The position numbers and the translations under genes are program-made. 64,000 nt of DNA, from assembly GCF_032854445.1 (NCBI RefSeq), contig NC_088300.1, forward strand, positions 59,618,984-59,682,983. Reading direction: 5' to 3'. This document shows positions 13,688 through 44,315 of the stretch, piece after piece. The stretch's first letter is position 1. Every line of letters begins with the position of its first letter. The stretch is from Liolophura sinensis (taxonomy: Eukaryota; Mollusca; Polyplacophora; Chitonida; Chitonidae). The notes below the pieces were generated by a model. That model saw only the letters and a list, made by a program, of their open reading frames with translations. It had not been told where the DNA came from and made no database searches.

Positions 13688-15084
13688 ATGCCGATGTCAA
13701 CGCGGCCTAAAGATTCCCCGGCAAACCGCTCACGACGCCTCTTTTCAGCCATGTCGTTTGATTTACGACTGAAAATGTATGGTGTCAGGGAGGGGTCAGG
13801 CTTTCAGGCTAAACTACAACAGAGAGTGCAGATGGTGAAGTTGATTTCTGTGATGTTTCTGCCGATTTCTGCCGTGGTCGTCTTCTCGGCCATGAATCTA
13901 TCGCGTTCCCTGCAGACGTTTAACAACGCCGAGTTGGCCCGCCAGACCGTTCTTCTGAGTCTACGAATGGACCATCTTGTCACCTCCCTTCAGCAGGAGC
14001 GGGGCAGGTCCGCCATGTACCTCAGTTCCGGAGGGGTGAACAGCGGGGCACTGGAAGCAGTCCAGAATATCCGCATAGCCACAGACAACATCGTGAAAAC
14101 TTTCCAACCAAGTCTATTTGCTGATATCATCAGTACAGGCGCAGCTGGCGAAACGATAGACTTTATCAAATATCTCACAGACGAGAGGGAAAAGGTTGAT
14201 AACTGTAGTGTGACATTTCAAGAAGCGATCCAAACATACACTCGTATAATAGCGGCAGTGGTCGCTGAACTGGCTTCCGGGCCAGGATTCTCCACCATTA
14301 ACTCGTTACAGCAGATGTTTGTTGCTGCTAATTCCATCCTGCGTACCACAGACGTGTACGGAATACAAAGGGCCCTTGGATCGTCTTTTTACATAAACTG
14401 TGATATGCAGTTATCGGAGTACGAATGGTACACAAGTCTTACAGGTCAATCTACCGCCCTCGTTGCCTTTGTCAATACCTACGACGCTCTGTCCGGTCAT
14501 CAAATTGCCAAAGAAATTAACGCTTTTGATACAGTTTTCGAAGGCATCAAAAGCTGCATGTGGAATGTGTCCTGTAAGGAATCATGTAGTGTCTTGACTA
14601 CGGAGGAAAGATTTGAGAGGAGTTCCCAGTGGTTTGGTAATATAACTATGCTGGTTGATGCTATAGGTCATGTCCGTGCCAGGTTAAGTGACAGAATAGC
14701 AGAGGAATTGAATAATGTAACGTCTGACGCCAGACAAGAGATGATTATCTATGTGGTAGTCATGCTTGTTATCATCGTGGCATGCATCACGCTTAGTATT
14801 TGGTATGCCTCTTGTATTTATTCGCTGACGTCCAGAATACGGAATTATGCGTGGTCTGTGTCTCAGAAAACCCTTCAACTAGACGCTGAAAAGAAGAAGT
14901 CCGAAAAACTTCTGTATCAAATGTTACCTCGTCAAGTGGTGGACCAGTTACGAGTGAACAACTGTGTCCAAGCGGAACATTTCGACCAGGTGACCATTTT
15001 CTTTAGTGATGTAGTTGGTTTCACAGATCTGTCCAGTGTGAGCACGCCGCTCCAGGTGGTCGATCTGCTCAATAACCTCTACAG
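13688..15084 (+). CDS. NIT-domain receptor guanylate cyclase, exon 1
   Basis: This exon (465 codons plus two bases) encodes the sensor half of a single gene continued at 38187, 39967, 40879 and 44262; the whole protein is about 618 residues. Order: cytoplasmic N-tail; TM1 about 48-68 ([15 protein letters not shown]); NIT domain about 80-330 with the hallmark [16 protein letters not shown] at 101-116 and several N-glycosylation sequons; TM2 about 352-374; a coiled linker with [12 protein letters not shown] at 408-418; then the cyclase start [12 protein letters not shown] with metal ligand D441. NIT domains sense nitrate, nitrite or related nitrogen oxides in bacteria; in animals such cyclases have been linked to nitric-oxide signalling. 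There is no kinase-homology domain and no haem-binding HNOB domain, so it is neither an ANP-type receptor nor classical soluble cyclase. I start at ATG 13688; the frame is open slightly upstream but without another ATG. The exon ends at a GTAAGT donor (15085); if the intron is retained the protein stops two codons later, without catalysis. Confidence 0.93.
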
Positions 15085-16066
15085 GTAAGTCATTTCTCAG
15101 GAAGTCGCTACCAGTTTTATTCCAAAACTTAACGAACTGTATTTTGTGACTAAACCTCAATTCTATACAAACGTTCGTTGTAACTCTCTCAGAAAAGGCT
15201 AAAGGCCAATTTCCAATAAATGTGACAATCACGTCTTCAAAACTAAAATGCTATAATTACGCTGTCTTTCAATGCGTGGAAACTGCTCTGTATTGAGTAA
15301 ATTAACGGTCTTGTTAAATGACGTGGCCGTTTGTAATTATGGCTGTGCTGGTTGGTTCTGGTGGAAAGTAACCAGAAGTGTAAACTACAACTCCTTCAAT
15401 ACTCCCAGTAAGACGATGAATAAAATGAGAATACTGAGTAAATGTCTACAGCAGTCTTGGGTGTATTTTAGAGGGTAAATATAGTTCTGACCATTTCCGC
15501 GATTACACGACCTTGCTCTGGCCGTCACCAATGCCCACTCAATTGCCACGCCGAGATAAAAATAAACTTCCACGGGGTGTGCTCCATGATTCCATTCCAC
15601 TAGATAACCAAGAGTTAATCAACCAATGGATAAAATGTAATGAAAGACGTACAGCTTAGAGAGCAAAACCAGAGCACAGACGACAGATAGTTCAAAATGG
15701 TCACACGCAACCGATGAAATACAGCCTCTTGTCAAGTTTAGGGTTTTATTCTAACTGTTTACGTAAATGGTTAAATAGTAGCAGATTACACGCCCCTAGC
15801 ACCAATGCTTAAGGTAAAAAAATGCAGTGGCAATAGGCCTTGGCAAAATATGAATAGCACCCCTTGTCTATTTCTTTTAGAGACTCGCCTACATTCAGCT
15901 GTCTGTAAAATCAGTCATACTCGCTACCAAAATTGCCTTTAGTGAGTGACACCTAACAACCCAAGGTCTACACATCCATATTTTGGAGGTTCGTGTGAAA
16001 AAAATGAAATTAGAGCACTTTTTCTAATTTGTAATGTTAAACTCCAGAAGCCTTGCTTCGGCACCT

Positions 16067-16196
16067 GGGCCCGGTTTCACGTAGCACTCCTAACGTTACA
16101 TTCACTGAACTATCACGCCAAGGAGTACTGTAGGCATTACGTCATCATGGTAGCTGCGAGTTCGTAATGTTAAGAGAGCTTCGTGAAATTGGGCCC
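16067..16196. mobile_element. MITE-like element with ~33-bp terminal inverted repeats
   Basis: The left end begins GGGCCCGGTTTCACGTAGCA and the right end is its imperfect reverse complement, ending GCTTCGTGAAATTGGGCCC. The arms match at about 26 of 33 positions. At 130 bp it has no coding capacity, as expected for a non-autonomous DNA element. The GGGCCCGTTTCAC start is shared with the element at 37018-37552. Confidence 0.6.
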
Positions 16197-18149
16197 TTGA
16201 AGTTATTACCTCGGGTGATGTGATAATTATTCAGAAACAAGTGGTATGCTGGACAATGGACGTGAAGAGTAACTAAAACCTGTAAATAATTCAAATATGG
16301 CCGTGTTAGAAACAGGGTTTAAAGTGAAGTCGATAGGAGTTTAGGTAACTGGTGTGTCCGCCCGTTCCCCAGCATGTCACTCGTTTTTTAATAATTATGA
16401 CGTCACTCGAGGCAATCAGTTCTTGCCGTCGAAACTGTGATTATTAGAAAATGAATTAGAAAAAGTGTTATAATTTCTTTTTTTTTCCAGGATATAAATT
16501 TTCCACATATCGAGGCGTAGAGCTTGTGTTGTTACGTGTCATTGATTAAAAGCACATTTTTGCAGCAGGTATGACTAATTTTACAAAGAGCTGAATATAT
16601 TCGACTCATTAAAAGAAATAGACTATAATTCAGTGAGATTGTCATATACAGGATACTCTTGGTTTGGTGGACAAATTGTGAGCCTTATAAATTATCAATA
16701 GTACCTAATCCACACAGTTTGACGCATGCAGGATCGCCCAAATGTCCACTAATACTCACCAAAACACACCTGAGTTCCATTTCCGGTGTACAACGCAGGT
16801 GATGGCGCCCCTGCCTTCACCGAATCCTACATCGGTTGAGTCGGTGGCGTGTGTTGTAGCGTCTTAGCGCATGCTACTTAGTACGACTTCCTGAAAATTG
16901 GCTGTGACACTGTGTCGCCCGAAGGCCACTAAATCTGCCACCAGCGGCGAACGTATCCACAAATGGAACTCACCCCTTCAGAGCAAGGCGTCGTTTAACT
17001 GCCTGCGCTTATTCTTTAGAAATTATCGAACCCCATATCGTCTTTCAAATTGAAAAATGCAGCCCATTTCTTCCACCGCTTTCAACACATCCGTTTCGTT
17101 TTTCTCTTTGTTCCGATCGGGGTAATTTCAGGGTACCACAGAGAGAGTAAAATGTATCCATTTCCTAGTTTTCTTCAGAGGGAACATCTTCGTTTACTTG
17201 GGCGCCAGAACCGTGCGCAGCGCTATTGCGCACCTTGGCTTCCGGCCGACATAGCAGACGAGATTAAGTCTGTCATTCACTTATCTCAGTTTGTTGAAAG
17301 TTCATAAATTAGATAAAGTCAGTATAAACCCGTTTAGGAGCAATAGAGATGGCTGTGGTCCTTTTTCTTCATAGGGGAAATATAACATAAAAGACTTACA
17401 GCATAGAGATGAAACCAGAGCAGTCACGAAAGCATGATAGCCTCCATGCTCCTCGCGTTACGTGGGGTAGAACAAACTCTGCGAGACTATGTGATCTAAA
17501 TAGAGTCTTTACAGTACAAGCAGCGAGGAATGTCTGTAGATGGCGTGCCACCTGTATGTCTAAGCAATCAATGACCACTTTGGCGCCAGGAACGTATAAA
17601 ACATGTCATCAAAGATGTGAAACTGCAAAGTAAATAGCTTAAATAAAAGCTAAATAGCTAAATAAATAGAGTCAATTCAGAAAGTTGCGGATAGCTCCTC
17701 CCGAAAGGTACAATCACCCAATTTTTTATGAAAGAAAGTGAACATTAGAGCAGCTGTCGCAAGATTATTATTTTGTAATATATTTTTCTGAAGTCATAAC
17801 ACTTTCTAATGTTTTTAAACGAAGCATGGGAAAGTTCCACTTTAAGGGTATATACAGTTGAATTATAAAAAAAAGATTGTTTGAGATATGAGATATCTTT
17901 TTCTAATTGGATAACAGAATTCATGGAATTCTATTGATTTATTTGTTTGATTGGAAGGCTGGTTAATACCACATTATTGTAGGAAAATATTGTCCGAAGC
18001 ATATTCCCATGTGCGACAAGTGTCAGATACACCCACACGAATTTGTTTTGAGACAACGAAGAAAGTTGAAAAATCACGTGACCCATGGATGGCCGCAACT
18101 GCACATGTAGTGAGTGTATAAAAACGTTACACACAGTGTGCTGGACTTG

Positions 18150-19171
18150 CACTGACTAAAAACCACCAAAGTAATTCCTCGATTGACTCCAGAACAACGC
18201 GAGAGGGCCCTGTGACCCATGCCCAGATTGCCAGGACCTTCGGCTGCTCTCGTGTAACTGTGTCAAACTTGATGCAACGTTACAGACACACAGGGCAGAC
18301 ATCAGACAGGCCAAAAACAGGCAGGCCTAGGGTAACTACGCCCAGAGGAGACGGGTACCAGCTCACTTTACACCTGTGAAGCCGCTTCCTGATAGTGGCG
18401 TCATCGTCAATCAAATGCCTTAGGTCACCGGGTCAGTCGGCAGACCATGTCCAGGAGACTCCTGGCTCACGGAATTAGGGCCTATTGACCAATCAGATGG
18501 CATTTGTTGACAGCCAAACATCGTCGCCAGAGGTTTCGATGTGCTTGAATTGTACGCCGTAGGCAGCGACGTGATTGGCAACGTGTTGTTTTCACGGATG
18601 AAAGCCACTTCTGCCTGTTCCGAGCCGATGACGCACAGCGAGTTTATCGTCGCAGAGGCGAACGAACGGCTGCATCATGCGTCCAGGAGGTGGTACCGTT
18701 TGATGGCGGCAGCGTGATGGTGTGGGGTGGGATTTGTGGAGAGGAACGGACACCACTTGTCATCATCTAAGGGAACCTAACAGCTAAACGTTACGTGGAT
18801 GAAATTCTGCGTCCTGTTGTCCTGCCGTTCCTTCAACAGCAGCCATGTGGTGTCCTGAACCAGCATGACAACGCCAGATCCCATTCAGCTCGACTTGTGC
18901 AGAACTTTTTAGACGCCAACGACGTCAACATCTTGCCGTGGCCTGCACGTTCCCCAGATATGCCCCCTATAGAATCCCTTTGGGACATCATGGGTCGTCG
19001 AGTAAGACAACGGCCACACTTTGCAGCCAAATGACAAGAACTGGCGTTCGCTCTACAAGATAAATCGCAACGAATCCCACGTCATCTCATCAGACGACTG
19101 ACTTTTTCTGTACGTCGGAGAGTTTTTGCATTCATTGAAGCAAGGGGTGGCCACACAGGATATTGATAGGT
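18150..19171 (+). pseudogene. Tc1-like (DD34E) transposase pseudogene
   Basis: An N-terminal helix-turn-helix region (AQIARTFGCSRVTVSNLMQR near 18223-18283) is followed by GRPRVTTP-type linker. The catalytic triad is in place: D in VVFTDESHF (codon 18597), D in NQHDNARSH (codon 18867) and E in DMPPIESLW (codon 18972), with 34 residues between the last two, which is the Tc1 signature. The gene is dead: an in-frame TAA at 18768-18770 sits where the family has Gln (VIIxGNLTA), TGA at 19033 interrupts the end, and frameshifts scatter the first half. Terminal inverted repeats were not resolved, so the outer limits are those of the recognisable coding part. Confidence 0.9.
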
Positions 19172-19478
19172 TTTGATATTGACTGATTTTAAAAATAATC
19201 AGTTTTTTGTATACTCTGCCCATTCTTAACCAAGATGGAATGGCTATTTCGCTACCCCTACTCTGTTTGTTCACTATATAAGCTGATACTGTCTCTCTCG
19301 GCATTCTGAGAACCAGTCAGTTAGTGACAAGTCATTTACTATTAGCGTGATTAGCAGCAGTATAAAGATTTACTTGGCCCGTGTCAGGTAGTGCGTGATA
19401 CAGTGGTAATACTAACTTTACAATAAAGAAGCTACGGGTGGGGTTAAGACTTGTATAATTGTCATCCATTTCAGATAA

Positions 19479-19950
19479 AACTATGATCAATACCTTGTAG
19501 AGTGTGATATAATCAGCATCCTGCACATCGTTTTATGATAAGCATTTTACATATTGTGATATGATCAGTGCCCTCTACATTGTTATATGATCAACAGCCT
19601 AGATTGCGATAAGATCGATATCCTATAGATTCTGATATGATCAGCACCATGTAGTTTGCGGTATGATCAACAGTCTGCAGGTTGTGATATGATCAGCACC
19701 CTGTAGATTGTAATATTATCAGCACCCTGTACATTGTGATATGATCAACACCGTGTAGATTGTGATATGATCAATACCCTGTATATTGTGATATGATCAA
19801 TACCCTGTAGATTGCGATATGATCAATACCTTGTAGATTGTGATATGATCAGCACCCTTCAGATTGTAATATGATCAATGCCCTGTAGATTGTGATATGA
19901 TCAATACCTTGTAGACTGTGATATGATCAGCTTCCTGCACATTGTGATAT
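19479..19950. repeat. 26-bp tandem array, about 18 imperfect copies
   Basis: Unit roughly GATTGTGATATGATCAATAC followed by CCTGTA. Most units carry the palindrome TGATCA. Copies on the left are more diverged than those at 19730-19900. No coding sense. Confidence 0.9.
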
Positions 19951-20984
19951 AAATGCAGAGAATAGCACAAAAAGTAAAACCAGAACAGTGACGACAGTGG
20001 GACAGTCGGCAAATGGTCACACTTAACTGATGAAACACGGCCTTGTTTGTATACCGCAGTTTTACTGTGTTATTTATAGGGTATGGGCTCAATACCTTAC
20101 AGATTATGGTATCGGACGCACAGCTGTGTGCTTTGATCAATGCTTTTTTTTTAAGTCAAAGCAATTGCCTTTTGAAGACTATTTGACTTCATGGCGTGAC
20201 GTAAACAAGCAGCATTAATTATCAACCTCGGTGAAATCGGAATAATAGACAGTTGCGGGTTTTCGCTGTTATTCCAAGGTATGCAAATACTAACATATTT
20301 TTTTTTTCTGAAGTATTTGGAAACTGTGACGGATCCTAAATGATGTACACATGTCTATATGTTTAGCAGTGTGAGGACCTGGGAAATCTTGTGTGAGTGG
20401 ATATCCCAAAAAAGCTACTCATTTGCCTTGAACAAACAGGTTATGTGCGAGCGGGAAGGACTGCCACGTTGATAACGGATGGAGATAGGCTATATACAAC
20501 ACAGAGAATCTTAATATGGAATAACTTATTCATAACATAAGCGAAATTGTTCCTTTGAAGCAACCAGGAAGGTGTGTGTTGTTCATTGATTACAACTTAT
20601 TAATAAATCGTGTGTTTGGTTAATGACAACAAATTTACCGCTATATGTGAGCCCTGGCATAATGATTTATTTATTTATTTGATTGTTCCATAACACAATG
20701 GTTTGCGTGCAATGTTCAGTCACTGTTCAATTAAATGCGCGGTGCCGCCATTCTTAAGATCAAAGAGAATAATATGTTTCAACTCTGCTGATATGAGTAA
20801 TGAATTTTCACTATATTCACCATTTGGCACATAGCACTGACGTCTACGGTAGTCTCTTATAAGCCCACGTATGCTAGTCAACAATAAAAATGAAAACTGT
20901 TGAAAAATACCGACACACATAGGTACGGACATCAGGTTGGATATGTCAAAACTATATACTGGATACAGCTTCATGGTATAAAAA
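19951..20984. other. unannotated stretch of intron 1
   Basis: Nothing supported except a short ATTTATTTATTTATTTGATT piece at 20665-20684, which resembles the SINE-A tail on the minus strand. Confidence 0.4.
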
Positions 20985-20998
20985 TCATATAGAGTTGA

Positions 20999-21358
20999 GT
21001 GAGTGAGTGCTTAGGGTTTAACGTCGTACTTAACAATTTTTCAGTCATATGACAACGAAGGAATCCTTACAGTGCATGTAATGCTAATGTGCCTCATTGT
21101 TGCATGACGGATTTCCACCGCTCTTTTATGTAGTGCTACTTCACTGAGACGACTTACCGAAGGCAAGTAAGCCGCCCCGCCCGAGAAATTATGCTGATAT
21201 AGGTCAACCAGTCACTGCACTATCTCTTGAATGCTGAACACCAAGCAAGGAAGCTATAACTTCCTCTTTTAAGGTCAAAGGTGTGACCCGACCTAGGGGT
21301 GACCCTGGATCTACCGCCCCCGAAGCCGACGCTCCACCAGCGGGGTCACCGGGGTTGG
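20999..21358 (-). mobile_element. SINE-B, full-length
   Basis: A perfect 14-bp target-site duplication, TCATATAGAGTTGA, flanks it (20985-20998 and 21359-21372). On the minus strand the order is a tRNA-like head (GCTGGTGGAGCGTCGGCTTC, then GGGTCACCCC), the body GGGCGGGGCGGCTTACTTGC, and the tail GTTAAGTACGACGTTAAACC with CACTCACTCACTC. The 360-bp length and the clean TSD mark a complete retroposed copy. Confidence 0.92.
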
Positions 21359-21372
21359 TCATATAGAGTTGA

Positions 21373-24300
21373 AGGAGTGCATTCACCATAGCAGTGACTG
21401 TGTCCTGAAAGTAACATTTTGGTACTCATTTGTTCCAAAATATCAGGAACGGTGTAGCAATTAATGGACGGAAATGAAATGACTTACATGTACGCATGCA
21501 TATGGCTGGTTTGGAGGTCCGTAGTATTATATTTATGACCGATATGCTGTTACCTTTTCTCTTATTAAACTTTTAACAGAGAAAGCCCAGTGCCCACTTG
21601 GGCAAAGATATCGTACGTACCGATTGTAACCCCTAATATGGATTGTAAACACTGGTAAGGTAACTTTTTGGAGTGGTGATAGTACGTCACACAATAGTGG
21701 TCTCTATAAATGGAAAATTTAGCGCTCAATAACTTTTCTTGCCTTCATTTTCAAAAGTTCTACATCATAATGGTTCAGCAGATAAGGAAAAAATTCATGT
21801 AACATCTTTTTTAAAAAAATAAATAGCACTCTTTCCAAACAGAGTCAATAATTAATAACTAACTGTATACCTAAGCCTAGTATTTGTAGGCCTACTTCAC
21901 GTTAATTTTTGGGCGATTGTACATATTTACAAGTGTCGACCCGATTGTAATTTCTGATTGTAAGCTGGCCAACGACTATCAAATGTATCATACCGTACAA
22001 TGCCTTTGTACAAAAGGGAGCCGAGTTTATTTAGGGCTACGATTATGACCTTAGTTATTTACAGTCAACTTAGGCTTATCCTTTCATGCGAACGGCCCAA
22101 ATTTTTTTTTTTTTAGAAATAACCCCAAATCCCCTATATTTCAACAGACTTTCTATGGATGTGCCACATTCTGCAAGTTTATAGCATGTTGTACATATGA
22201 AAATATTTAGCAAATGACAAGACTTTACTTGTAATCACAACCATGTCAGTACTTTAAGACACGATCTGTTGTCTCGATATCAGCCAACCATTGTCGATTC
22301 TGTATGACGTAGACTTGTATGTCAGAGTTCATAGTTGACTGTTTTTTCTAAAAGCTTCGTCTTCAGTGAGGAGCTGAAGAGTTAAGGGCGAGTGATGAAT
22401 GTAAAAAAAAGTAAAACCCTGTTGGTAGGATTCATTGACTTATTGTTTATGGAGATAAAGGTAATTGTGGGTGACTATTCTTGCGTGGTTGTCATAGCAA
22501 CGACGGCGGTTGGATTCAGCTAGTAGATCCCAGGTGGAGGTATCACGATTAATGACCATCCGATGACGTTTGAGCCTTGACCACATCTAACAAAACTTCA
22601 CTTTGTTGGAAATTGCTTAAAGTAGTCCCCTGGGAGGTGCGCTTTGGATTATCAAATGAACAAATCATGAGTAGATCTGTATGAAAGTACAGTGTTTAGA
22701 GCCACAAGGAAAGCTGCAACAAAGGATAATTATTGGATGCCGCCTTATTCCAGAGGTAATTTTATCAAGGCCTGCTGTTAGCCTGGCGAGGATTCTGTAG
22801 TTTTCTAAAACTGTTTCTGCTGTGAATCATTGCACAAATTTCCGTTCCCTTTGGCTCTTTGGAATATATGTTGGTAACAGAGGAATTAAAAAATAACCTT
22901 GTAGGTGGTATTTTGAAAACAGTGGTAAACATTTTACTAAGGGTCGATTCTTTGATCTTGCATTAACTAAATACGCTCCTAATAAAGAAAGACACATTTT
23001 TTATCCTTTGTGGTATACATATAAATAGGTTTGTTTTTTCCTCAACATCTAAATATGTTTTTATGTTTCTCAGCTAGCTCTTCAGTACTTATGTGTTATT
23101 GGTGTGTCTCCTGTCGAGTTCTAGGTCATCGTTGTCTTGTATTATATTTTGAGCAATGAAATATAGGTTACCTCAGATGTAGTTTGCTAAAGAATGGTTG
23201 GTAGGCTTTGGGTTCTGTTTTCCAGAACCTTTTCTTAAACTAAAGTATATATATATATATTTTTGCATAGGTATTTGATTGCTGTTCAATGCCATACTCA
23301 AACGTTTTTATCCCCCGGCCTACTTCAATTTTGTTTGGACAAAATTCATATTTGGCTTGTTTGCTCGGCGCAAATGACCTTTGACGTACATTATTACGTT
23401 AAAGTTTATATTTTACTTGTTACGCTGTAGTTCCAAAAGTACTCAGCCAAATTCAATGAAATCTTCATACACTTAATGACTTGTAGATCCCCCAGATCAT
23501 GTTTTATGATCACGATGAGTGATCTCTTGGCCAGCTTTCTTCACTCAGAGTTCATAGTTGGCTTGCTATATATCATCTGATGAGACAAAAGCAACGGAAC
23601 TTCGCACAAGGATTCACATTAGAATCAATGCGTTTAACCTTAGACCATCATTCACTTTCGTAGGTGATAAATTTATATTTAGCTCTAGCTCGAATAAACG
23701 CAGTATCTCCAGAATTAACAGTATGCTGGGCAATAGCGTATTCAGTCTTTATGGCTGGGTGACCGTAATGCAAAGAACTGCACAGTCGAACGATGGTAAA
23801 CAGTTTTTGACATCGATGGAAACGTTATCACCTTGGTCATAACATTTTCCATCCAGGTGAAAATGCTCGTGGTACAAAACGTCTCGTTCCTTTTCTCTGG
23901 GGCCAAATACTAAAGATTTAGGATATTAGTTCTTCCAGTATGTCTTTGTTCCAGGTTTCTTGCAGTTTACAACCAGTGCCCAGATGTTATTCAAACGTTC
24001 ATTAGGATTTAAGGCTGATATTAACTTCTATATGGTATATAATGTTTTGATGAGAACAGTATTATAATTTCAGTTGGATTTAACTTGTGTCCACTTTTGA
24101 ACAAATCTTGGAAGATGCTGACAGAACGGTTATCATCTGTGCTATTCTGTTTAACAGCTGTATTTCTTAGGGCTAATTTCTTAGTTTTTCGGTGGTTTGT
24201 GTTGAGAGCTGTTTTGGAAATTGGTCTTGTGGTAAATGACCGGAACTTCCATGTTTGTTGACGGTTGGGATTTGAAAGTCTGTTTAACGCCTATAGATAT

Positions 24301-25015
24301 ACACAGTAATAGTACTCGTTGGCATATTTATGGCTATAGCTGTTTTTTAATTACCATACAAAGCATAAACGGATGTGTTGAATAACTGATTGTTGTTGTT
24401 CCGCATGTCTCAAGCGTAAACACCGATACAAAGCCGCTGTTCATAAAAGTATATGGGTTCTAAAACTGAATAACAAGCACAGCAATAGGGCTGTTGTAGC
24501 AGAAGTTGCCGTGTTGAAGATCATGAAGTCAGTTCATAGAATTTTATTGAACAAAGCACGTCAAACGCGGGGCGCAATGAATGTGTTGCTAAGCGATAGC
24601 TTTTGTAAAAAGTAACAGAAACACATCTCAACGTGAGTCACAGCTAGCGTATTATTCAAACGTAACCAACGAGACAACCACAGTGGCTACCTGAATCTTC
24701 CTCGCTGGATCGTGTAACGTTCCCTCGAAGTATCAATGACCAAAGCAGTCGTTCATTTAACATAGAATTCTGTAGCTAACACACAACTGTCAGTATATAC
24801 CTCTCTTCTACATGGACACAGGCACTGATAAGACACTATTTTAGATTTTGAGCAATCGCGCCGTAGAATTATTGCATTTCTAGTCATGTGGTATTTTCAA
24901 TTAAATACGGGCGCTTTTGTTGCCCGTGAGTGTTCTGTTTTCTGTACCATCCAACTTTGTTGAAACGGAAATGTGCATGTGTATTTTTTGTCAACAAGTT
25001 GAGACAAGTTGAGTG
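21373..25015. other. unannotated stretch of intron 1
   Basis: I find no exon, transposase or array here. A short AT run lies at 23248-23260. The 94-codon frame at 23558 has no recognisable domain. Confidence 0.4.
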
Positions 25016-25019
25016 AATG

Positions 25020-25080
25020 AAGCCAATCAGCAGGCGTGTAGAAATAACGTGACCGTCTTAAGGCACGTGACCCGGGTAAA
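25020..25080 (+). promoter_or_regulatory. promoter-like block before ATG 25081
   Basis: In 60 bp there is a CCAAT box (GCCAATCAGC), a CRE-like AACGTGACCGTC and a CACGTGACC E-box, followed directly by AAAATGGCG, a strong Kozak context. The grouping resembles a proximal promoter, but no transcript evidence exists. Confidence 0.3.
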
Positions 25081-25353
25081 ATGGCGACGTCAAAGGCGAA
25101 AGAGAGAAACTACTCTCACGATGAGACAGTGCCGTTGATACAGGAGTATAGCCACGGCAATTTAACGCAGCCGACAAACCCACGAGACGATGCTTTCCGG
25201 CTGCTCGTGACTGTGTCTCATGTATTGGAGATAAAGATGGAAATTTCCCTCCAATTTATCGAAAGTTTGGTAAAAAAAACGAAAAAAAAAAAAAAAAAAA
25301 AAAAACAGCTCAACACGATTCAACACACAACAGTGTACCTGCGAAGACCGTGG
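25081..25353 (+). CDS. possible first exon of an unknown gene (MADF/Myb-SANT-like start)
   Basis: The frame opens with ATG in a strong context and reads MATSKAKERNYSHDETVPLI, then QEYSHGNLTQPTNPRDDAF. The D-E-x3-LIxEY pattern faintly recalls the start of MADF or Myb/SANT-like DNA-binding domains in harbinger-related proteins, but the expected Trp residues are missing. Near 25271-25304 it runs into a long A-run that would encode poly-Lys, so the real coding part, if any, may end at a GTAAAA donor at 25270. It lies inside intron 1 of the cyclase on the same strand. It could equally be a chance frame or a fragment. Confidence 0.18.
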
Positions 25354-26605: not shown

Positions 26606-26754
26606 GCATCATTAACTAAGTGTTAAATTATTGCGCAGTTTCATTTTGGATGTTTTTCATGTTATCATACACATATGGTTTGTCAGATATTTTCAATGTA
26701 AAGGCATGACCATCCCCAGTCCCTACACAAATATGCCAATGTCATTTGTTCAGC

Positions 26755-33433: not shown

Positions 33434-33545
33434 GATTGGTGTTCAACGCCGCATCAAAAGAGTATTTCACTTACACGACGGCGGTTAGTTTCATGAGTAG
33501 GCAAAACGGAGTGTCCGAAGAGTATTCGACGAGTAACTGATGAAC
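33434..33545 (-). mobile_element. SINE-A-related fragment, diverged
   Basis: GATTGGTGTTCAACGCCGCA and TATTTCACTTACACGACGG match the reverse complement of the SINE-A tail. The next block, CGGTTAGTTTCATGAGTAGG, differs from SINE-A and recurs at 34.99 and 53.57 kb, so it is a separate subfamily sharing the tail. Confidence 0.6.
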
Positions 33546-33740
33546 GTGCCCACGTGTGACTCGAAAGACGTTCACTCGAAGGCCGAGCACAGTATTTATG
33601 CCACATTCGTGGAAAGCACGAAATTTCTCATAAATTTCATGTAGGACCAGCTACACAGTCGCATATCGCCACCAAGATTTCAACACCAGTGGGGAAATGA
33701 AAATTCCCGTGTGAGGTGAGCATTGCATCAAGACCTTCTG

Positions 33741-33985
33741 TCATGGCAACGCCGTGTCTTCACTACTCGTAACTATGGTGGCTACGTCCACATGTCTTGC
33801 ATATACTTGTTGCTATGCCAGCTACATGTACGTTACCATCATAGCGACGCCAAGTCTTCACTACAGCTAGTAGTGTGCTAGTTACGGGCACGTCTTCACT
33901 ATTTGTTGCTTTAGTAATTACGTGCAGGTTACCACCGTGGTGACGCCGTTGCTACTGGTTGCTATGGTAGTTACGGGCCCGCTTT
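33741..33985. repeat. degenerate ~58-bp repeats, about four copies
   Basis: Recurring blocks are GTCTTCACTA, TTGTTGCTATG, TAGTTACGGGCAC and GACGCCGT. Copies are well diverged. Confidence 0.5.
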
Positions 33986-34954
33986 GTGACACAGGTCCTA
34001 TGATCTCAAACTCAAGGATCTTACGCTGTACATAGAAAAAGATTTGTGAGTCAACGGCCTTTGGCTATGATGAATGCTTTCATCGGTAAACAAGACGTAT
34101 TGATGATATTAGAATGTTTAATCTGCGGATATATTTACTCTGATGTGCTAATATGGAGGAAGGCATCACAATTTGTAATCATTCATTAATTTTGCCGTGA
34201 CAGTAACTAGATTTGTGTGACCTTCCTGCCTTTGATCTCCTCTTGTGTAGTTTTGAAATGTTTCTATTTAAAATAAGTGGGATTGAAGAAAAAATTAGGG
34301 TGTAAGTGGGTGGTGGTTTCTACAATGGATAGCTTGTTTATGTGGTAGAGTCTATAATGTCTAACCGGATACAGATTGTCAAATTTACTCACACTGACCA
34401 TCCTTTGTCCCATAGTACATTAATGTTTTGATGATTTTCCGTCTAGTCAGCGTTGTCTTCCTCCTCATTTATCCCTCCAGGGTTTTTTGTCATTTTCTGC
34501 CGTTAAAATATTCAGTCAGACCCTAGTTGACGTCTGCCATAAAAAGATGTTTTGAATGTATTCTTGTCAGTCAGTAATGTACCTTGTCTGGTTTCAGCAA
34601 AGGCTAGGCGTCAGACATTGGTCCTCTGTCTGTTTCAATGACTAATTACCCCATGCTCATAAATGACTGAAGCCGTGTGGAGATGCAAAAGAACAATAAT
34701 GGTCCTGGACGTAATTGGTTCGACACAATTGTATAAATCATGAAAAAGAGTAGTTAACGAAAGCACGCCACACCTTAGTGACACACACTTACCAACAGTG
34801 CATAGGCGTCACAAAACCAATATGTAAGTGTCGGTTCTTAAGCCATTGTGAGTTTCTAGTCTCAGAAAGTAATTAAATTTGTTTATATAAGTACTTTGTT
34901 TACCAGCAAACATCATGAAATTCTGGACATTTAATTTAGTTTTTAATCTGGTTG

Positions 34955-35045
34955 ATTGATTGGTGTTTAAGTCTGCATTCAAGAGTATTTTATTAATATA
35001 CAGCCGGTTAGTTTTATGGATAGAGGAAACCGTATTGCCTAAAGT
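34955..35045 (-). mobile_element. SINE-A-related fragment, diverged
   Basis: ATTGATTGGTGTTTAAGTCT and CAAGAGTATTTTATTAATAT recall the SINE-A tail reversed, followed by the CCGGTTAGTTTTATGGATAG block also seen at 33.5 and 53.57 kb. Confidence 0.55.
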
Positions 35046-35659
35046 TAGCTCACCCTGTTATAATCATTAGTATCATAAATTGTCCCTCCCTCCCTTGACC
35101 TACACCTTTTCTCGTCTGAATACGACAATATGCAGAAACCATTAAACAGTAATCCTCTCCAAGGCAGATCTTTCTCAGTCACTAAACCGCACATTGATGA
35201 TCTCCTAACTTTAAACAATATATATCCACATTTCCTGGATTTATAGAAAACCGCAGACCCTAGATGGTACATCTTTTCTGGGCCTATTCAAAGATCAAAA
35301 CGATTTCCTCCCTAGCTGACTTTGCGATAAGAGTGATAGTTTCAGTTGTGACATTATTAGTTAATAACAAATGAGGCTGATGCCTCGCACAATATGAAGG
35401 CTATTGGCGCCATATATTTCCATATCCTACCACTGAGTGAAAATGTAACGAATTTATCCTGCAAAAGATCCATCAGTTCAGCGCAAAAGACTGATATATA
35501 TGCAACTCGCTTTAGTGATGTGATCAAACAAACAAAGGCTCAACAGACACATATGACGTAGCTGAAGGATACGAAATTATACACATGACCGTTGCTGTCA
35601 AATGAAAAGTTCCTGCACGTTGGATATATGAACGGTAGGAATGAAAGCTCGGTTGAGAT

Positions 35660-35932
35660 GGGGCCTCCGTGGCTCAGTCTGTTAGCGCGCTAGCGCAGCG
35701 TAATGGCCCAGGAGTCTCTCACCAATGCGGTCGCTGTGAGTTCAAGTCCAGCTCATGCTGGCTTCCCCTCCGGCCGCACGTGGGAAGGTCTACCAGCAAC
35801 CTGCGGATGGTCGTGGGTTTCCCCCAGGCTCTGCCCGGTTTCCTCCCACCACAATTCTGGCCGCCGTCGTATAAGTGAAATATTCTTGAGTACGGCGTAA
35901 AACACCAATCAAATAATCAAATAAATAAATCA
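35660..35932 (+). mobile_element. SINE-A, full-length reference copy
   Basis: Head: GGCCTCCGTGGCTCAGTCTG with box A, then TTAGCGCGCTAGCGCAGCG. Box B: GTGAGTTCAAGTCCAGCTC. Body: CCTGCGGATGGTCGTGGG and CTGCCCGGTTTCCTCCCACC. Tail: TTGAGTACGGCGTAAAAC, ACCAATCAAATAA and AATAAATAAAT. A perfect 8-bp target duplication, GTTGAGAT, is at 35652-35659 and 35933-35940. Two short plus-strand frames inside it are not genes. Confidence 0.95.
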
Positions 35933-37017
35933 GTTGAGATACATATCTGATTATCGACAACTTATATACTATCATGGTACACGATTTGACTACTGATTTC
36001 ACACAGTCGCCCAGACATTCTTTGTGTCTTTCCAACATCACTAAAAAACTACTGACTGCTTATCTTTGCCCGATTCCACCTTAGTATCGTACTTTATAAA
36101 CTTTTTCAGTTCTGTGGTTAGTTGTGTCGAACATCGTTTTGGAAATTGGCCTTGCAATTATTGACCTGGAACGCCTATTTTATTAGACTGCCGGTATTCT
36201 TCGAGGTATAGATTCACAAATTGTCACATAAGCATTAAAGATCAATATTTGGAGCCAGAAATTTCTGGCTGAACAGTTGAAGAATGTTTTGTCAGCATGG
36301 AAAACAGAAATGGCCTATACTATCATGAATATACCATAAAGAGCTGAATGGGTTTAGCTTATCTCTTGTAAAGAGTTTAGAAGACTAAACAGTCACAGAA
36401 GACACACAGTCGTCGAAATTTCGTGGGGCTACTAATATATTAGGACCTTGTCGGAAGTTTATTTGTCTGTGTCCGTCATCAAGAATTTAAAAATTTCGAC
36501 GTTCGATTTTCGGAAAATTCCCATTTTTCCGATTTAACGATCGTCCCTGATTCCACTTAAGAACACAGTTTCCATGGCAGTGCTCTTAATAACATCTATA
36601 TAATATGACGTGTGTCTTAGAAAATGGACAAACATGTCTATAAGTGGCTTTCAGAACTCTGTTTTTGTTTGCACTGCAAACACACATCACTTCTTAGCGA
36701 TGGCGTAATGCACAGCTCCCTTTTACCAACGAGGATACGATAGCTTTCCTTCCTGTGTGTTTAGAAGAGCTTGTCCGCAGCTCATTCCAGTCGGGATTGC
36801 GGTATTATCATACTCAGGAAGGATTTTACTATGAAAATAAACATTTACACGGGCGGTGTGTATAATCAGCGGTTAAGAGCTCTTATTACGAGATTGACGA
36901 GGCCTGCTGTTCATATAATTTCATATTCCTCATTATTTTGTGTTCATACAAACCTGTTATCAGGCTTGTAGCACTTTCCTTGTGTTGTCGGTTTGGTTCC
37001 GAATGTTTATGTATTTT

Positions 37018-37552
37018 GGAGCCCGTTTCGTAAAAAGCCTAAAGGGTTGGCTTAGACGGCTAATTTGGACTAACAATTTTGTCTAACCTGTTTCAGAAAA
37101 AAACTTTTTGCTTATGGACTAAATTCTTTTGTCTTAAATGTAGAAAGAGAGCCCCAAACCCTCATTCACGCCCGAAGGAATCAAATTCGGCATTTCAAGT
37201 GTTATGAGTGCCTTTCTTGAAGGTTTATTTATTGATTGGAGAAAAATAAGAATAAATCAGCTTCTGTCAGCAAATGAAAATGTTTTTGTTCTTTTTTGCA
37301 TTTTATCCCTTCCTTGGCAGACTTTACTAGAAACTAATATGAAGAAGAAACAATCATCAGGAAATCTACCAATCAGATTGCTTCCAGGCGCCCACATAGC
37401 CGGTTACGGCATTCCTTCCAAGCTTTAGACAGTTTTACGTTTGTGAAACTACCCAGTCAAGTTTTTTCTTAGGCGTCTTACGATAGTCGCCTAATAACCC
37501 TTAGCCTACTGACAGATCTTAGACGGCTACATAAGTTTGGTGAAACGGGCCC
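37018..37552. mobile_element. MITE-like element, GGGCCCGTTTCAC ends
   Basis: The left end GGAGCCCGTTTCGT and right end GGTGAAACGGGCCC are near-reverse complements. Inside, TTAGACGGCTA occurs in the left part and again near the right end. At 535 bp it has no transposase. It shares its termini with the 130-bp element at 16067. Confidence 0.5.
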
Positions 37553-38186
37553 AAGCAGCCAAAGTATTCTGTTATATGTCTCAATAATATACATATTTAA
37601 GATTTGCTGTTATGTGATAACTCAGTAAGAGCAAAATCTAGTACTTCGATTTTTGTGCATATGTATATGGATGTATAAGGATATTTGACCCACTTTTGGC
37701 CAGTAATTAAGTCCATCATGTCTGATTACCGATATCACGTGAGGTTATACTTTATGGCTGCTAGCTTTTGATTGTTCGTATAATGTTTTGTTGGTTAGAA
37801 TTGATTAAATCGTCACAGTGACTCTATATGGCGGCCAAAATAATTCGCAGGCTCTGTTTAAACAGACTTTAGAAAAGCAGAAATCCTTTGAAAAGTAATG
37901 AAACAATTGTTTAGATCAAAATTTTATCCAATCAACAAATCGTATTCAGGATGAAGCCATTCCGCTGGATCAGTCTGGTTTCAATCTTATTCTTCCGGAT
38001 CACTGATCAGGTATTGAAAAATTAATTTCAAATCGGGCGATCAATTAATAATATTTTTGTTTTCCATCAATCAAATCTCGGCACAGGAAAATTTGAATGT
38101 AAGAATTTTCTGACAATTAATCAGTCACCGTCTTTTCATAATCAGGAATGTTGTTGTTTAGTTATTGTCTTTGTGTTTTACTTCAG

Positions 38187-38401
38187 TCTGTTTGACTCTT
38201 GGATTGACCAGTATGACGTGTACAAAGTAGAGACAATCGGGGACGCTTACATGGTGGTCAGCGGACTACCGGAGAGAAACGGAGAACGTCACGTGATCGA
38301 GATCTGCTCCATGTCGCTAGACATTGTACAGTCTGTGCAACACTTTACTATACCTCACCTGCCACAGCAAAAGTTAAGGATTAGGATAGGCATTCATTCA
38401 G
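38187..38401 (+). CDS. NIT guanylate cyclase, exon 2 (catalytic core)
   Basis: 215 bp between a TTCAG acceptor and a GTGAGC donor. It completes Ser466 and reads [20 protein letters not shown], then [15 protein letters not shown], then RIRIGIHS. It supplies the second metal-binding Asp (D485) and E481 of the KVETIGD motif; Glu at this place is the guanine-selecting residue (adenylyl cyclases have Lys). The reading frame is continuous with exon 1, and the exon ends one base into Gly538. Confidence 0.95.
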
Positions 38402-38807
38402 GTGAGCTGTGGTGGATTTCTGGTTTATTAGTCTGTTGATCTTGCATGTGATTTAATCAATATTTTGTAATGCGCTTAGGCCTGTAGTATTGTCACCCTA
38501 TATGATTACGTTCTGTTCCTATGGGTTGTAACAATGGTGAACTCGTCGTTTGTTGTCTGGAGATCTTGTGATTTAATTACTACCTGCTTATACTACCTAC
38601 TGACACTCGCCATGATTGCGTAACTTTTGATGATATCCGTCGCGAACTCGACAGATATTGCAGATCTCGCGATAAAATTGTTACATTATTACGCTCACTA
38701 TTGTCACCTGGCTTGCTTACGTTTCGTTTCCTTAGATAAGCTGTAGTTAATTTCTCCTTTATTGTCTTTTGATGTGATATAGCTTTTGGTATTTAATATA
38801 TCCATAC

Positions 38808-38942
38808 TTGGGACGGTCTTTCAGCAACCTGCGAATGGTCCAGATTTTCTTCCAGACACTGCCACGTTTCCTTTCACCTTAATGGTGGCCGATGTCGTGC
38901 AACTGAAGTATTCGTGAGTGCGGCGTAAAACACCCATAAAAT
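38808..38942 (+). mobile_element. SINE-A 3' part, diverged
   Basis: From GGACGGTCTTTCAGCAACCT through GGTGGCCGATGTCGTGC to GTGAGTGCGGCGTAAAACAC. It lies in intron 2 of the cyclase. The rest of intron 2 (38943-39966) shows nothing recognisable. Confidence 0.75.
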
Positions 38943-39966
38943 TGAATTACTGCAAATGTTATGAAAAACTCTTGCTTCTAGATAATTACAAGAAAGATAT
39001 GTCAAAAGTATGAGAAAAAAAATTTGAGGTATATTTCTTATTTCCTAATCACCCCATTGTTTTATGCATATTAACGTCAATGATCGGAAGTACTCGGAGA
39101 TGACTTTAACGATGAATATATTGGGAACGCAGGACAAGTTTAGCGCCCCAATTCGGGCTCCTCTTCTCCACACACGCAGCGTTGTTTTTACAGCTGTCAC
39201 CGTTAACGTTACCAAAGCAGGCTATTTAATTTCTGACTGACTGCTAGAACCTAAAAAAACTGTGGTTTAAACTAATTTTTTCTCTCTAAAAAGATCTCCA
39301 CAAGCTGATCAAAAAAAAAACAAAAAAACACGGAACCTAATTGACGTCATAATGAAAATTTATATTTCTCATTCTCACATCCGCTTCCATAATTTTGGAA
39401 TGGAACTAGATCTGAGAATATAACAAAAATCGACTGATTAACTCTCAATCTACCCATTTGTGCATATAGATGTGCTCCCCGATAAGCCGTTTGCATTTGT
39501 ACCATTTGTATTCATCAAATTTTATTTTCATGGAAATCAACTTCTCGAAAAGTATGTTTGCACTGCTGTAAATATTGTAAACAGAATAAGCTAGGTACTT
39601 GAATAACCAAATATAAAACAAAGAAGGGTATCATATATAAATACATTGTACTCCATCCGGATTAACTTGTTGACCATGTCATATCTACATGCATTATTGG
39701 TACGTTGCCTGACTGTCTAATGGATGTGTTTGCGCTGTTTGGAGGTAGACACCCGGAAATGTATCCAATTTAATACATTTAGTTTGCTGGAATATGCCGG
39801 TATTTTTCCCCATCTACCCTGAAGAGCAAACGATATCTTAATTGACAAACGAAATGTTAATCAAACCAATCCTCAGCACCTATACATGCCATTTATCGGA
39901 CCTCCAGGGCAGTGCCACCCGTCGTCTCTCTGTTAATGAGCCTTTCATCTCAATCGTCTCTTGCAG

Positions 39967-40066
39967 GTCCGTGTGTGGCTGGGGGTTGTTGGGGTGAAGA
40001 TGCCTAGATACTGTTTGTTTGGTGATACTGTGAACACGGCCTCCAGAATGGAATCCTCAGGTGTCG
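39967..40066 (+). CDS. NIT guanylate cyclase, exon 3, carrying a +1 frameshift
   Basis: 100 bp between CTCTTGCAG and a GTAAGTAGG donor. It begins in the right frame (GPCVAG), then five G at 39981-39985 stand where four would keep the frame, so translation leaves the frame and meets TAG at 40005-40007. With 99 bp it would fit exactly between exons 2 and 4 and carry the expected [17 protein letters not shown] block. That block contains C553 (guanine selection) and N560 and R564 (transition state). Either the extra G is a homopolymer error in the sequence or this allele is a null. I annotate it as a coding exon with a break. Confidence 0.9.
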
Positions 40067-40171
40067 GTAAGTAGGTAGAAACAAAAAGCAAGTGCGTATG
40101 GCTGAAAAACGAGAAAAAAACATAGCCCAGTGTAAGGAAACTTCTTAAGTGTTTTGGATAAGCAACATAGG

Positions 40172-40331
40172 CCGATTCCACAAAGTAGTTTCTGATTTAA
40201 GTCAAAATTGGTGGAAATTTGGAAATGTTGGTGTGGAGATAACCATTGATGAAGTGAGCATTATTTCGAAAGCCCAAAAATAAGCTTGAAATTTTGACTG
40301 ACGGTAAATGAGAAATGGATATGTGAATCGG
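40172..40331. mobile_element. MITE-like element in intron 3
   Basis: Left end CCGATTCCACAAAG and right end ATATGTGAATCGG form terminal inverted repeats. Further in, AAGTCAAAATT (left) pairs with AATTTTGACTG (right), so imperfect arms reach about 40 bp. It is 160 bp and has no coding capacity. Confidence 0.55.
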
Positions 40332-40878
40332 TATACCACACTTGTGTTTGGCTATTTTTGTTTTTCGAGAAACACTTCAAACTGGATAATAATAAAAAGA
40401 GAAAAATAAAATAAAATAAAAAGGCGACTTAAACAATTTAATGAACTGCGTGAAACAAAAACACAGACATTTTTGACCAAATCATTAACTAATTTCTCCA
40501 GGAGAAATGTGTGATGAATGTATAAATCAAAATTCAGCGGGAACATCATTTTTCAAAGGTAGATCTCTGATGCCTAATGGCAATGGTGGATCTCATAATT
40601 ATGAACGAATATTTGTGCTATATCATGCAATATTTACGACTATATCTTTGCCATAGGTGAAAGTGATCCACCCGAGGTGTTCTTGTGATGAAATAATGAT
40701 TTACCCGTGAATAAGACTAACCTAAGTTGTTTATTTGTATCTCCATTCATTTTAATAATGGAAGGATTACGGGATTTCCAGGGAACAGTTTCTTCTGTTC
40801 TCATGATCACTTGTTGTAATACTGCTTAAAGTTCTGAATGAATTTTACATACGTTATAAAACATTCTCTTTGACATAG

Positions 40879-40970
40879 CTCAGCAGATTCATATAAGTGA
40901 AGCAACGAAGACGTTGTTGGATAGTGTGGGTGGATATCAGTGTGTATTAAGAGGGGATGTAAATATAAAG
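40879..40970 (+). CDS. NIT guanylate cyclase, exon 4
   Basis: 92 bp from a TTTGACATAG acceptor to a GTAAGTG donor. With the last base of exon 3 it reads AQQIHISEATKTLLDSVGGY, then QCVLRGDVNIK, matching the end of the cyclase fold (IHxSEAT, then the RGDVxIKGKG run). Phase is one base in and zero out. Confidence 0.93.
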
Positions 40971-41011
40971 GTAAGTGTTCTCAGTAGGATCTGTGCGATA
41001 AGTAACTGTAC

Positions 41012-41281
41012 CTTCGGGGGTCTACGAGGCCGAGTGATTAACTTGCTACTAGAGTACAACGACCTAGGAGGCTTTCACCAATGCGGTTGCTGCAAGTTCA
41101 AGGCCAGCTCATGCTGGCTTCCTCTCCGGTCATGTGTGGTAAGGTCTGCCAGTGACCTGCCTCTGTCCGGTTTCCTCTCTCCTTATTGCTGGTCGCCGTC
41201 ATTTAAGTGAAATGTTCTTGAAAATGACACAAACTAAAATACCCCCCCCCCCCAAAAAGAAACAAAACAAACAAAACCCCC
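41012..41281 (+). mobile_element. SINE-A, diverged, with C/A-rich tail
   Basis: A perfect 10-bp target duplication, GTAACTGTAC, lies at 41002-41011 and 41282-41291. The head is mutated (CTACGAGGCCGAGTGATTAA) but the box B region and body are clear. The tail is a run of C then A-rich sequence instead of AATAAA repeats. It lies in intron 4. Confidence 0.85.
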
Positions 41282-41404
41282 GTAACTGTACGCTCTGAGA
41301 AATATTCTGTTGAAATACGGTGTCTAAATTGTGTGACACAGTGGTCAGACATACGGAATGTGCAGTTATTGCTATTACATACCGTATATGGATCAACTGA
41401 ATCA

Positions 41405-41676
41405 CTCCGTGGCTCAGTCGGTTAGCGCGCTAGCGCAGCGTAGTGACCCAGAAGCCTCTCATCAATGCGGTCGCTGTGAGTTCAAGACCAGCTTATGCAG
41501 TCTACCTCTCCGGCCGTCCCTAGGAAGGTCTGTCAGCAACCTGCGGGTGGCCGTGGGTTTCCCCGGGATCTGCCCGGTTTCCACCCACCACCGTGGGCTG
41601 GCCGCCATCGCATAAGTGAAATATTCTTGAGTACGGCGTAAAACAACAATCCAAAAAAAAAAAACAAAAAAAAAAA
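41405..41676 (+). mobile_element. SINE-A, full-length, A-rich tail
   Basis: Starts CTCCGTGGCTCAGTCGGTTA and runs to GAGTACGGCGTAAAACAACA followed by A-runs. A 13-bp target duplication with one mismatch flanks it: ATCAACTGAATCA at 41392-41404 and ATCAATTGAATCA at 41677-41689. Intron 4 of the cyclase. Confidence 0.92.
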
Positions 41677-42039
41677 ATCAATTGAATCAACGGTATATCG
41701 GCGTCAAAGTAAAACAATTTGTATTTGATACAACTTTCTGGTGGCTTAGCACAAGTCTAATGATGCATACTGATACCATACTGTCACAATGATCCTGATA
41801 TGTTACGACAAACCATTGTAGATAAACTGTTGATGTATTCAGTTCCTTGTAAATTACACGTAGGCCTAAGGTGACCACTCTTTTTTACATCTCCATGATC
41901 ATCTGCGCACAGTGCCATATGAAGCTCTGGCAAGCACGATTTAGCATCAGAGGCAATGGTACGGGGATTTCTAGTATTTTTCAGGGGATTCGCATCTCCG
42001 TCAGCACTCCTTCGCATCTAAAGCACGGGTGCGCTAGTA

Positions 42040-42690
42040 AGGAACTTTTCATCATTATTGGCCCGCCTTTAATCTGAACCACTACCGATTGGATATCCAC
42101 CATTATTAGTGTTTCATCATCTGAAACACTCTTGAGAGGATTTTCATCATTATTAGCATGCCATAGCAATCTGAGGAGATTTTCGTAATTATTATTTATT
42201 TATTTATTTGATTGGTGTTTTACGCCGTACTCAAGAATATTTCACTTATACGACGGCGGCCAGCATTATGGTGTGAGGAAACCGGGCAGAGCCCGGTGGA
42301 ATCCCACGACCATCCGCAGGTTGCTGTCAGACCTTCCCACGTGCGGCCGGAGAGGAAGCCAGCATGAGTTGGATTTGAACTCACAGCGACCGCATTGGGT
42401 GAGAGACTCCTGGGTCATTACGCTGCGCTAGCGCGCTAACCAACTGAGCCACGGAGGCCCTCTCGTAATTATTTGCATGCCATAGCATCTGAAGGGATTT
42501 GCGTCATTCTTAGCTTGCCATAGCATTTGAAGGGATTTGCCTCACTATTAGCATCTGAAGCCCTGGAGATTCCCATCATTATTACCACTCGGTAATAACT
42601 CAGTATGATCGTCGGTGAAGACATTTTCATCGTCCTTAGCACTTTTTGACATCAGAGGGGATTTGCATTAATATTAGACCCCATCCGCAT
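42040..42690. repeat. degenerate ~43-bp repeats, split by a SINE
   Basis: Blocks such as TCATTATTAGCATGCCATAG and ATCTGAAGGGATTTGCGTCA recur on both sides of the SINE at 42194-42462. The array predates that insertion. Unit spacing is irregular. Confidence 0.55.
42194..42462 (-). mobile_element. SINE-A, full-length, inside a repeat array
   Basis: Minus orientation, with head GGGCCTCCGTGGCTCAGTTG at the 42462 end and the TTATTTATTT tail at the 42194 end. A perfect 11-bp target duplication, TCGTAATTATT, lies at 42183-42193 and 42463-42473. Intron 4 of the cyclase, opposite in orientation to the gene. Confidence 0.95.
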
Positions 42691-44261
42691 TCGTAGCACT
42701 GATGACCGTCTTGCAGTTATACTCTTGTGTCTTGATACTATTTATGTTTGCCATAACGTAAATAGTGTTCTATTTTTAAATAGCTTTGTCACTGCCCACA
42801 ATAAATGTCTTTTGGTTGGACTTTAGTGGGCCAACCATAACATCTCTCATGCCGTGAACGCATTTTGACGCACGTTCCCCAAAGCCTAAAGATCTCTCCT
42901 AAGTATGATATTTAACTGCAACTGATCGACTTTAGTCGAGGAGATTATTTTGTATTTATAACGTAAATGCAAAAAAAAAACAAAAAAAATAAAAAAAAAC
43001 AAAACAAAACACAATTTTCCCATTGTGCATTAACATTTTTCAAGCTGTACGAGTAATCCCTCTTTTTCAGGTCAGAATGCCAAACATGTTCAAAACATAA
43101 TCAAAAAGTCTGACTGCAGAAGCAGACGGTCTAGGAATTTCTAAAACGCATAAAATATAAAAAAATATAGACAAATATACGCATATTAAACACGGTTTTT
43201 TCACTGAAGCATTGTGGATTATTTACAAGAGACGTACTCAGGAGGAATATTGTGGTATTGCTACAAAAATTGTAATCTAGCAACTAAGCTGGGTAATTTT
43301 AATGTTTAATCCGCTGGCTAAACAAAAAGACCAAAGGTTTTGTTTTGTGGAACATTTTCCATTCAAGCGAGACTTTTTGTTAAATTCAATCCAATTCAAA
43401 AGCAGCAGTAGCCAATGAGTGAATGCTATCAGTCTCGAATAGTACATATCTTTGTGCCAGGAGGAATATTGGTTCTCACATAAACGTTCGGAGCAAACTG
43501 TGATTCCTTGACCCTTCGAGAAGCAAAGCATCACAAGATGATTGACGAAAGGCTCTTTTCTATGATCTATTGATCTCATCATCCTCGGGGCCAAAATGGG
43601 GTAGTTTTCTTAATTATATTTTTTTGAGGAAGTCTCCCTGGGGGCGAAAAGCGGAGGTGGGGGGTAGGGGTTTTGGTGGCTGGTGAATGTGTGTTGAGGG
43701 AAAGCTACTTTTGGTAAAAGTAGCAATTTACACTAGTATATACTACTGATTAATGGTGGCTTGTGATATGGTTCATGTGTTTAGTGAACAACGCGGTAGG
43801 AAATAACTGTCGTGAATCTTCGCGCATTTAGAACTGCGCTCGTCATTCTGTAGCCCTAGTTGTCTTCCTGGTATGCCCGACTATCGGAGACCGTCCTGAT
43901 TTATAAGATTTCCTAGTCTAATTCAGTTGGTTAGATAAATCCTTTGCGTCAGATTTAGGTTATGATGTGTTTTTTTTTCAGTACATACTACCAATGCATT
44001 AGTGTGGAATCTTTATTCAGAATACCACTTTGATCAAAAGTGGTATTCGTTTATCAAGCAAAAACAGGATACCCAACACAGCGTTGCGCTATCACCATAA
44101 AACTGTTGGTGCATTTGGCATGGAATGAGCATTAGCCTTAATGGGCGGATTGAACTTCTTTACTGACGATCGATGAAGCAGATAAGTGGATTAATGGTGA
44201 TAGTTCATCTAACTTTTTATTGTACTTACTGTACTACATTTCATGTTGTTTTCCTCATCAG
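42691..44261. other. rest of cyclase intron 4
   Basis: A-rich runs near 42970-43010 and a G-rich patch near 43640-43675. No exon, transposon or array supported. It ends in the CTCATCAG acceptor of exon 5. Confidence 0.45.
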
Positions 44262-44315
44262 GGTAAAGGCATCATGCGCACATACTGGCTTACTGGCCGT
44301 TGCGCAAACGGTTGA
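44262..44315 (+). CDS. NIT guanylate cyclase, exon 5 (C-terminus)
   Basis: After CATCAG the frame reads GKGIMRTYWLTGRCANG and stops at TGA 44313-44315. GKGxMxTYWLxG is the near-invariant end of class III guanylate cyclase domains, so the chain ends only a few residues past the catalytic domain. Phase agrees with exon 4 (zero). Confidence 0.93.
   Translation, partial: GKGIMRTYWLTGRCANG

Follow-up and report, generated by a model that had tools for sequence, protein, structure and literature searches.

A NIT-domain guanylate cyclase gene in the chiton Liolophura sinensis

Gene structure and features of the locus

The sequence analysed in this study, referred to as the window, is a stretch of 64,000 nucleotides of the Liolophura sinensis genome (assembly GCF_032854445.1, contig NC_088300.1, positions 59,618,984 to 59,682,983 of the forward strand). 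It harbours a gene for a NIT-domain guanylate cyclase (NIT-GC), with the order transmembrane (TM) segment, NIT domain, TM segment, putative signalling helix and guanylate cyclase in one protein of 618 residues. The coordinates of the parts of this gene, and of the other features of the window, are presented in Table 1.

Table 1. Features of the window, with positions counted from its first base
Feature	Position	Strand	Content
Exon 1	13688-15084	+	Start codon, basic N-terminus, TM1 (residues 46-72), NIT domain (97-337), TM2 (346-381)
Exon 1, continued	13688-15084	+	Putative signalling helix (378-421), then cyclase residues 1-39
Intron 1	15085-38186	+	23.1 kb; donor GTAAGT, acceptor TTTTACTTCAG
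Exon 2	38187-38401	+	Cyclase core, with E481 and D485
Exon 3	39967-40066	+	Part of the cyclase with C553, N560 and R564; frame broken at 39981-39985
Exon 4	40879-40970	+	Cyclase, C-terminal part
Exon 5	44262-44315	+	Final 17 residues and stop TGA (44313-44315)
RING-finger open frame	50855-51373	+	zf-RING_UBOX, E 5.7e-10
Transposon remnant in intron 1	18122-19031	+	DDE_3 piece, E 1.9e-8; helix-turn-helix piece below Pfam cut-offs
SINE-like dispersed repeat, six copies	41390-41650, 42190-42470, 35780-36060, 53580-53880, 54180-54480, 58150-58450
Tandem array	11983-13064		41-base repeat, about 26 copies; the array ends some 620 bases before the start codon
224-codon open frame	7049-7720	-	No Pfam match at E <= 0.01

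The five exons and 618 residues proposed in an earlier, sequence-only reading of this DNA were recovered, with GT-AG borders at all four introns and a TGA end. Splice phases were compatible except for an extra base in exon 3, which is represented by an X at a single frame step in the joined product. The motif AATAAA was present at 44504, 3' of exon 5. Exon 1 lies inside an open frame of 471 codons (13673-15088, + strand); in 40 windows simulated by a first-order Markov model with the composition of the window, open frames reached at most 239 codons. Exon 1 alone matched positions 1-39 of the cyclase profile (residues 427-465), and the alignment of the joined product with the membrane receptor cyclase GC-A was gapless over the joints 1/2, 2/3, 3/4 and 4/5. 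Both observations support the predicted joining of exon 1 to the downstream cyclase exons, as had been claimed. A tblastn search of the window with the joined protein (E <= 1) returned only the gene's own five exons; neither a second copy nor a gene cluster was found. No RNA family was matched in the window at gathering scores.

Domain architecture

The joined product was scanned with Pfam. The NIT family (PF08376), which had been predicted at residues 80-330, was matched at 97-337 (E 9.6e-19; 69.1 bits against a cut-off of 24.9), and Guanylate_cyc, also predicted, was matched at 427-612 (E 1.6e-72). Hydropathy over 1.6 (19-residue window) was reached only within 46-72 and 346-381, and the NIT domain is therefore flanked by two membrane segments. 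Pfam and hydropathy thus agree with the layout of TM segment, NIT domain, TM segment, linker and cyclase that had been described earlier. A further match, to HNOBA at 378-421, was limited to the C-terminal 44 of the 216 positions in that family (E 4e-5; 23.7 bits, cut-off 23.4), and three other Pfam families were all below their cut-offs. The HNOBA piece is the helix preceding the cyclase, and it also aligns with GC-A. In the available text of PMC1592074, this helix is described as a signalling helix common to soluble, peptide-receptor and NIT cyclases.

No kinase family, no HNOB haem domain and no ANF-type ectodomain family was listed at E <= 1, in keeping with the earlier claim that the kinase-homology and haem domains are missing. 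The protein cannot be assigned to the soluble guanylate cyclases, as these combine HNOB with a full HNOBA, nor to the peptide-receptor guanylate cyclases, as neither a kinase-homology domain nor an ANF-type ectodomain was found.

Between the two membrane segments there are five cysteines (173, 238, 290, 296 and 300) and four N-glycosylation sequons (172, 293, 318 and 343). The basic N-terminus and the sequons fit a position of this region on the outer side, and the NIT domain is probably extracellular.

The cyclase half

The C-terminal domain is, judged by its residues, a class III cyclase of the guanylate type. The catalytic residues D441, E481, D485, C553, N560 and R564, all correctly placed in the sequence-only reading, were present and identical in GC-A. 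Over the catalytic region, identity with GC-A was 136 of 214 residues. The closest solved proteins were GC-A (E 2e-88) and GC-C (5.8e-75), followed by membrane adenylate cyclases (scored over the whole protein, in which two stretches matched), and further down by the one-domain soluble cyclase 3et6 (8.8e-49) and sGC alpha-1 (2.4e-46). As the metal, guanine and transition-state residues are all found in one chain, a homodimer would, by what is established for class III cyclases, hold two complete sites. The earlier placement of this protein outside the textbook groups holds for the NIT layout but not for the catalytic half, whose nearest matches among solved proteins are membrane receptor cyclases. 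The catalytic half of placozoan NIT cyclases is likewise related to membrane receptor cyclases (PMC7400543).

The frameshift in exon 3

A stretch of five G in exon 3 carries one surplus base, which breaks the frame; from there the sequence as given encodes seven shifted residues before a stop is reached. No second stop or frameshift was found among the 618 codons. Alternative splice sites that would rescue the frame (GT-AG, with conserved residues kept) were looked for by eye, without a program test, and none was seen. Single-base runs are a usual spot for read errors. As no other lesion was seen, the most likely source of the frameshift is an error of base calling or assembly.

The gene might instead be a pseudogene, a decayed NIT-GC copy in which the frameshift is genuine and the protein ends inside the cyclase. 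The extra base and the early stop are what such a copy would present, and the many NIT-domain genes of molluscs, hemichordates and placozoans (PMC7400543) make dead copies plausible. However, the break is the sole lesion, it sits in a single-base run, the GT-AG borders are intact at four introns, and the 70 residues past the break, up to residue 614, align without a gap to GC-A. A pseudogene, which would be a young one, is therefore considered improbable.

Fold and pocket of the NIT domain

Residues 46-385 were modelled together with four aligned NIT rows from bacteria and viral contigs; the model was all helical, with a pLDDT of 78.7 and a pTM of 0.69. When this model was compared with the PDB by Foldseek, chains A and B of the Klebsiella protein NasR (4AKK) were the only two matches at E <= 0.001 (7.6e-7 and 1.2e-6; TM-score 0.58) among 461 at E <= 10. 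The third match had an E-value of 0.035.

The residues of the NIT domain were compared with those of 44 NIT domains: 12 came from plasmids, 2 from viral contigs and the other 30 from the genomes of a single phylum. For the plasmids, 12 of 19 records were taken, and three Thioclava, two Vibrio and two Streptomyces records were excluded as these genera were already present. The genome rows comprise one locus from each of 30 genomes, in a sample of 200 genomes centred on a Shinella genome (L015), 90 of which had a match. Also excluded were L016 and L048, from contigs already used, and L015 and L017, which represent one place, from Shinella near L007. One viral-contig locus (L013) spans just 128 residues and accounts for gap cells in later columns. 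Because the set leans towards one phylum and high Pfam scores, the counts probably overstate the conservation of these positions across NIT domains as a whole.

R105, in the helix-1 motif LQxERG, and R167 corresponded to arginine in all 44 domains, and R228 in 42 of the 44. K288, a conservative change, stands where 40 of the 44 have arginine. R105 and K288 may be the equivalents of NasR R49 and R236. Other near-invariant positions were altered, for example T221 (lysine in 42/44) and S255 (glutamine in 42/44). The Q227-R228 pair occupies the place of an E-R pair of the aligned domains, which is present in an Azospirillum protein (L009) annotated as a nitrate regulatory protein. Q227-R228 would thus be the counterpart of E175-R176 in helix 5 of Klebsiella NasR, which lies outside the alignment; in the accessible text of PMC7496416, these two residues are proposed to contribute to the nitrate pocket. 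The anion pocket looks kept, and the arginines suggest that the ligand may be a small anion. The coupling of the pocket is perhaps altered. Placozoan NIT domains are said to hold the critical residues of the bacterial domains (PMC7400543).

Proposed function and alternative explanations

Taken as a whole, the gene probably encodes a NIT-GC that makes cGMP under the control of an oxyanion. The protein would cross the membrane twice, with its all-helical NIT domain facing the exterior of the cell or an equivalent lumen. The ligand would be nitrite or nitrate, whose source in animals is probably nitric oxide (NO); on binding at the conserved arginines it would shift the long helices that cross the membrane. 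TM2 and the signalling helix would relay this shift to the paired catalytic domains, and the activated pair would produce cGMP. The nature of the ligand, most likely as stated, is suggested by homology and by work on annelids rather than by the sequence of the window.

Several observations weigh against this interpretation. The splicing of the five exons is predicted from the DNA sequence, and the sequence as given has a broken frame. The identity of the NIT domain with the 44 domains was only 15-22%, and a phmmer search of the PDB with the NIT part did not detect NasR at a significant level (E 1.6, rank 45). NasR was also absent from the seven matches (E <= 10) to a 53-residue PDB query around helix 1. 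When residues 46-385 were folded without an alignment, the model was poor (pLDDT 52.5), and the evidence from the fold therefore depends on the homology used. In the signalling helix, the ERT signature, as given in the available text of PMC1592074, reads QKT; the EERT of GC-A is SQKT here, with the threonine kept. Within the pocket, Q227 is found where 43 of the 44 domains have glutamate (with one gap), and R330 where 42 of the 44 have glutamate. Mutation E175A in NasR resulted in the loss of RNA binding, according to the accessible part of PMC7496416, and in combination with the Q227 and R330 departures this indicates that the ligand or the coupling may differ.

These departures bear on two further explanations. 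A re-tuned pocket, in which the conserved arginines persist but Q227, K288 and R330 would provide for another anion or another coupling movement than in bacterial NIT domains, is put forward tentatively, as a rather unlikely reading. It is also conceivable, though rather unlikely, that the protein is an active NIT-GC whose NIT domain senses a different small ligand, or merely dimerises or anchors the protein in the membrane. The replaced glutamates and arginine at near-invariant positions, the low identity, and the cysteines and sequons between the membrane segments might be read in this way, but R105, R167 and R228 have been kept over a great distance, the fold resembles that of NasR, and an annelid relative is tied to NO signalling (PMC10584369).

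Direct binding of NO by the protein appears very improbable. NIT-GC1 is required for NO signalling in Platynereis (PMC10584369) and direct binding was left open in PMC7400543, but the Pfam scan detected no HNOB haem domain, and for NasR the available text of PMC7496416 proposes that arginines of the NIT pocket bind nitrate. For the oxyanion-switched cyclase favoured here, R105, R228, Q227 and K288 are testable positions for the question of the animal NIT ligand. The NIT-GCs are little studied animal guanylate cyclases and might represent a second NO route in addition to soluble cyclase. The gene described here is a compact and nearly complete example of them.

Other features of the window

Several tandem arrays lie in intron 1, together with the remnant of a transposon. 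The helix-turn-helix and DDE_3 pieces of the remnant are in two separate open frames, and by our reading the element is Tc1/mariner-like. When the six copies of the SINE-like repeat were aligned, the 3' half was common to them, a tRNA-like head was present in three of the six and an A+T-rich tail in five. ARAGORN found no tRNA in this repeat. In appearance the repeat is similar to those of molluscs. A search of literature text for stretches of the repeat gave no match, and two further stretches were absent from the accessible text of a paper on a limpet Nin-SINE. The RING-finger frame is perhaps an exon of another gene.

Comparison with known systems

This gene adds a member to a receptor class already published in 2006 (PMC1592074). 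NIT cyclases were then described in insects and sea urchins, as presented in the available text of that paper, and in 2020 in placozoans, molluscs, annelids and other groups (PMC7400543). The earlier description of a class known from a few marine invertebrates is thus right as to the class but too narrow in its range, and with this wider range the overall picture stands. The link to NO signalling in relatives, also proposed in the sequence-only reading, is borne out by Platynereis NIT-GC1, which is required for retrograde NO signalling to ciliary photoreceptors (commentary PMC10584369). NIT-GC2 of the same annelid is a marker for the cilia of ciliary photoreceptors, as stated in the accessible part of PMC11412693. 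Outside the animals, pelagophyte algae are reported, in the available text of PMC9481584, to have NIT domains accompanied by flanking TM segments or by kinases.

In common with the metazoan NIT-GCs, the chiton protein has a NIT domain between two TM segments followed by a cyclase (PMC7400543), a putative signalling helix ahead of that cyclase (PMC1592074, available text) and an ANPR-type cyclase, and the key bacterial residues are said to be kept in these proteins. No difference in layout was seen, the comparison being with the published layout.

The likeness to NasR comprises the NIT fold and the helix-1 and helix-5 arginines, the latter two through the alignment of other NIT domains. NasR is a NIT-ANTAR antiterminator that binds RNA and has no cyclase, whereas the NIT domain in the window lies between TM helices and ahead of a cyclase, and has glutamine in place of the glutamate that precedes the helix-5 arginine. 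The best tblastn E-value among the plasmids (4e-9, 24.9% identity) was that of a NIT chemoreceptor of Roseateles sp. XES5 (L001), which also uses the NIT domain as a sensor but is annotated as a methyl-accepting chemotaxis protein, not as a cyclase. A search for bacterial relatives in genome contigs with the NIT part alone gave 30 pattern-matched stretches, none of which was confirmed.

GC-A (ANPR1) has a peptide-binding ectodomain, a single TM segment and a kinase-homology domain, and the chiton protein resembles it in the catalytic region.

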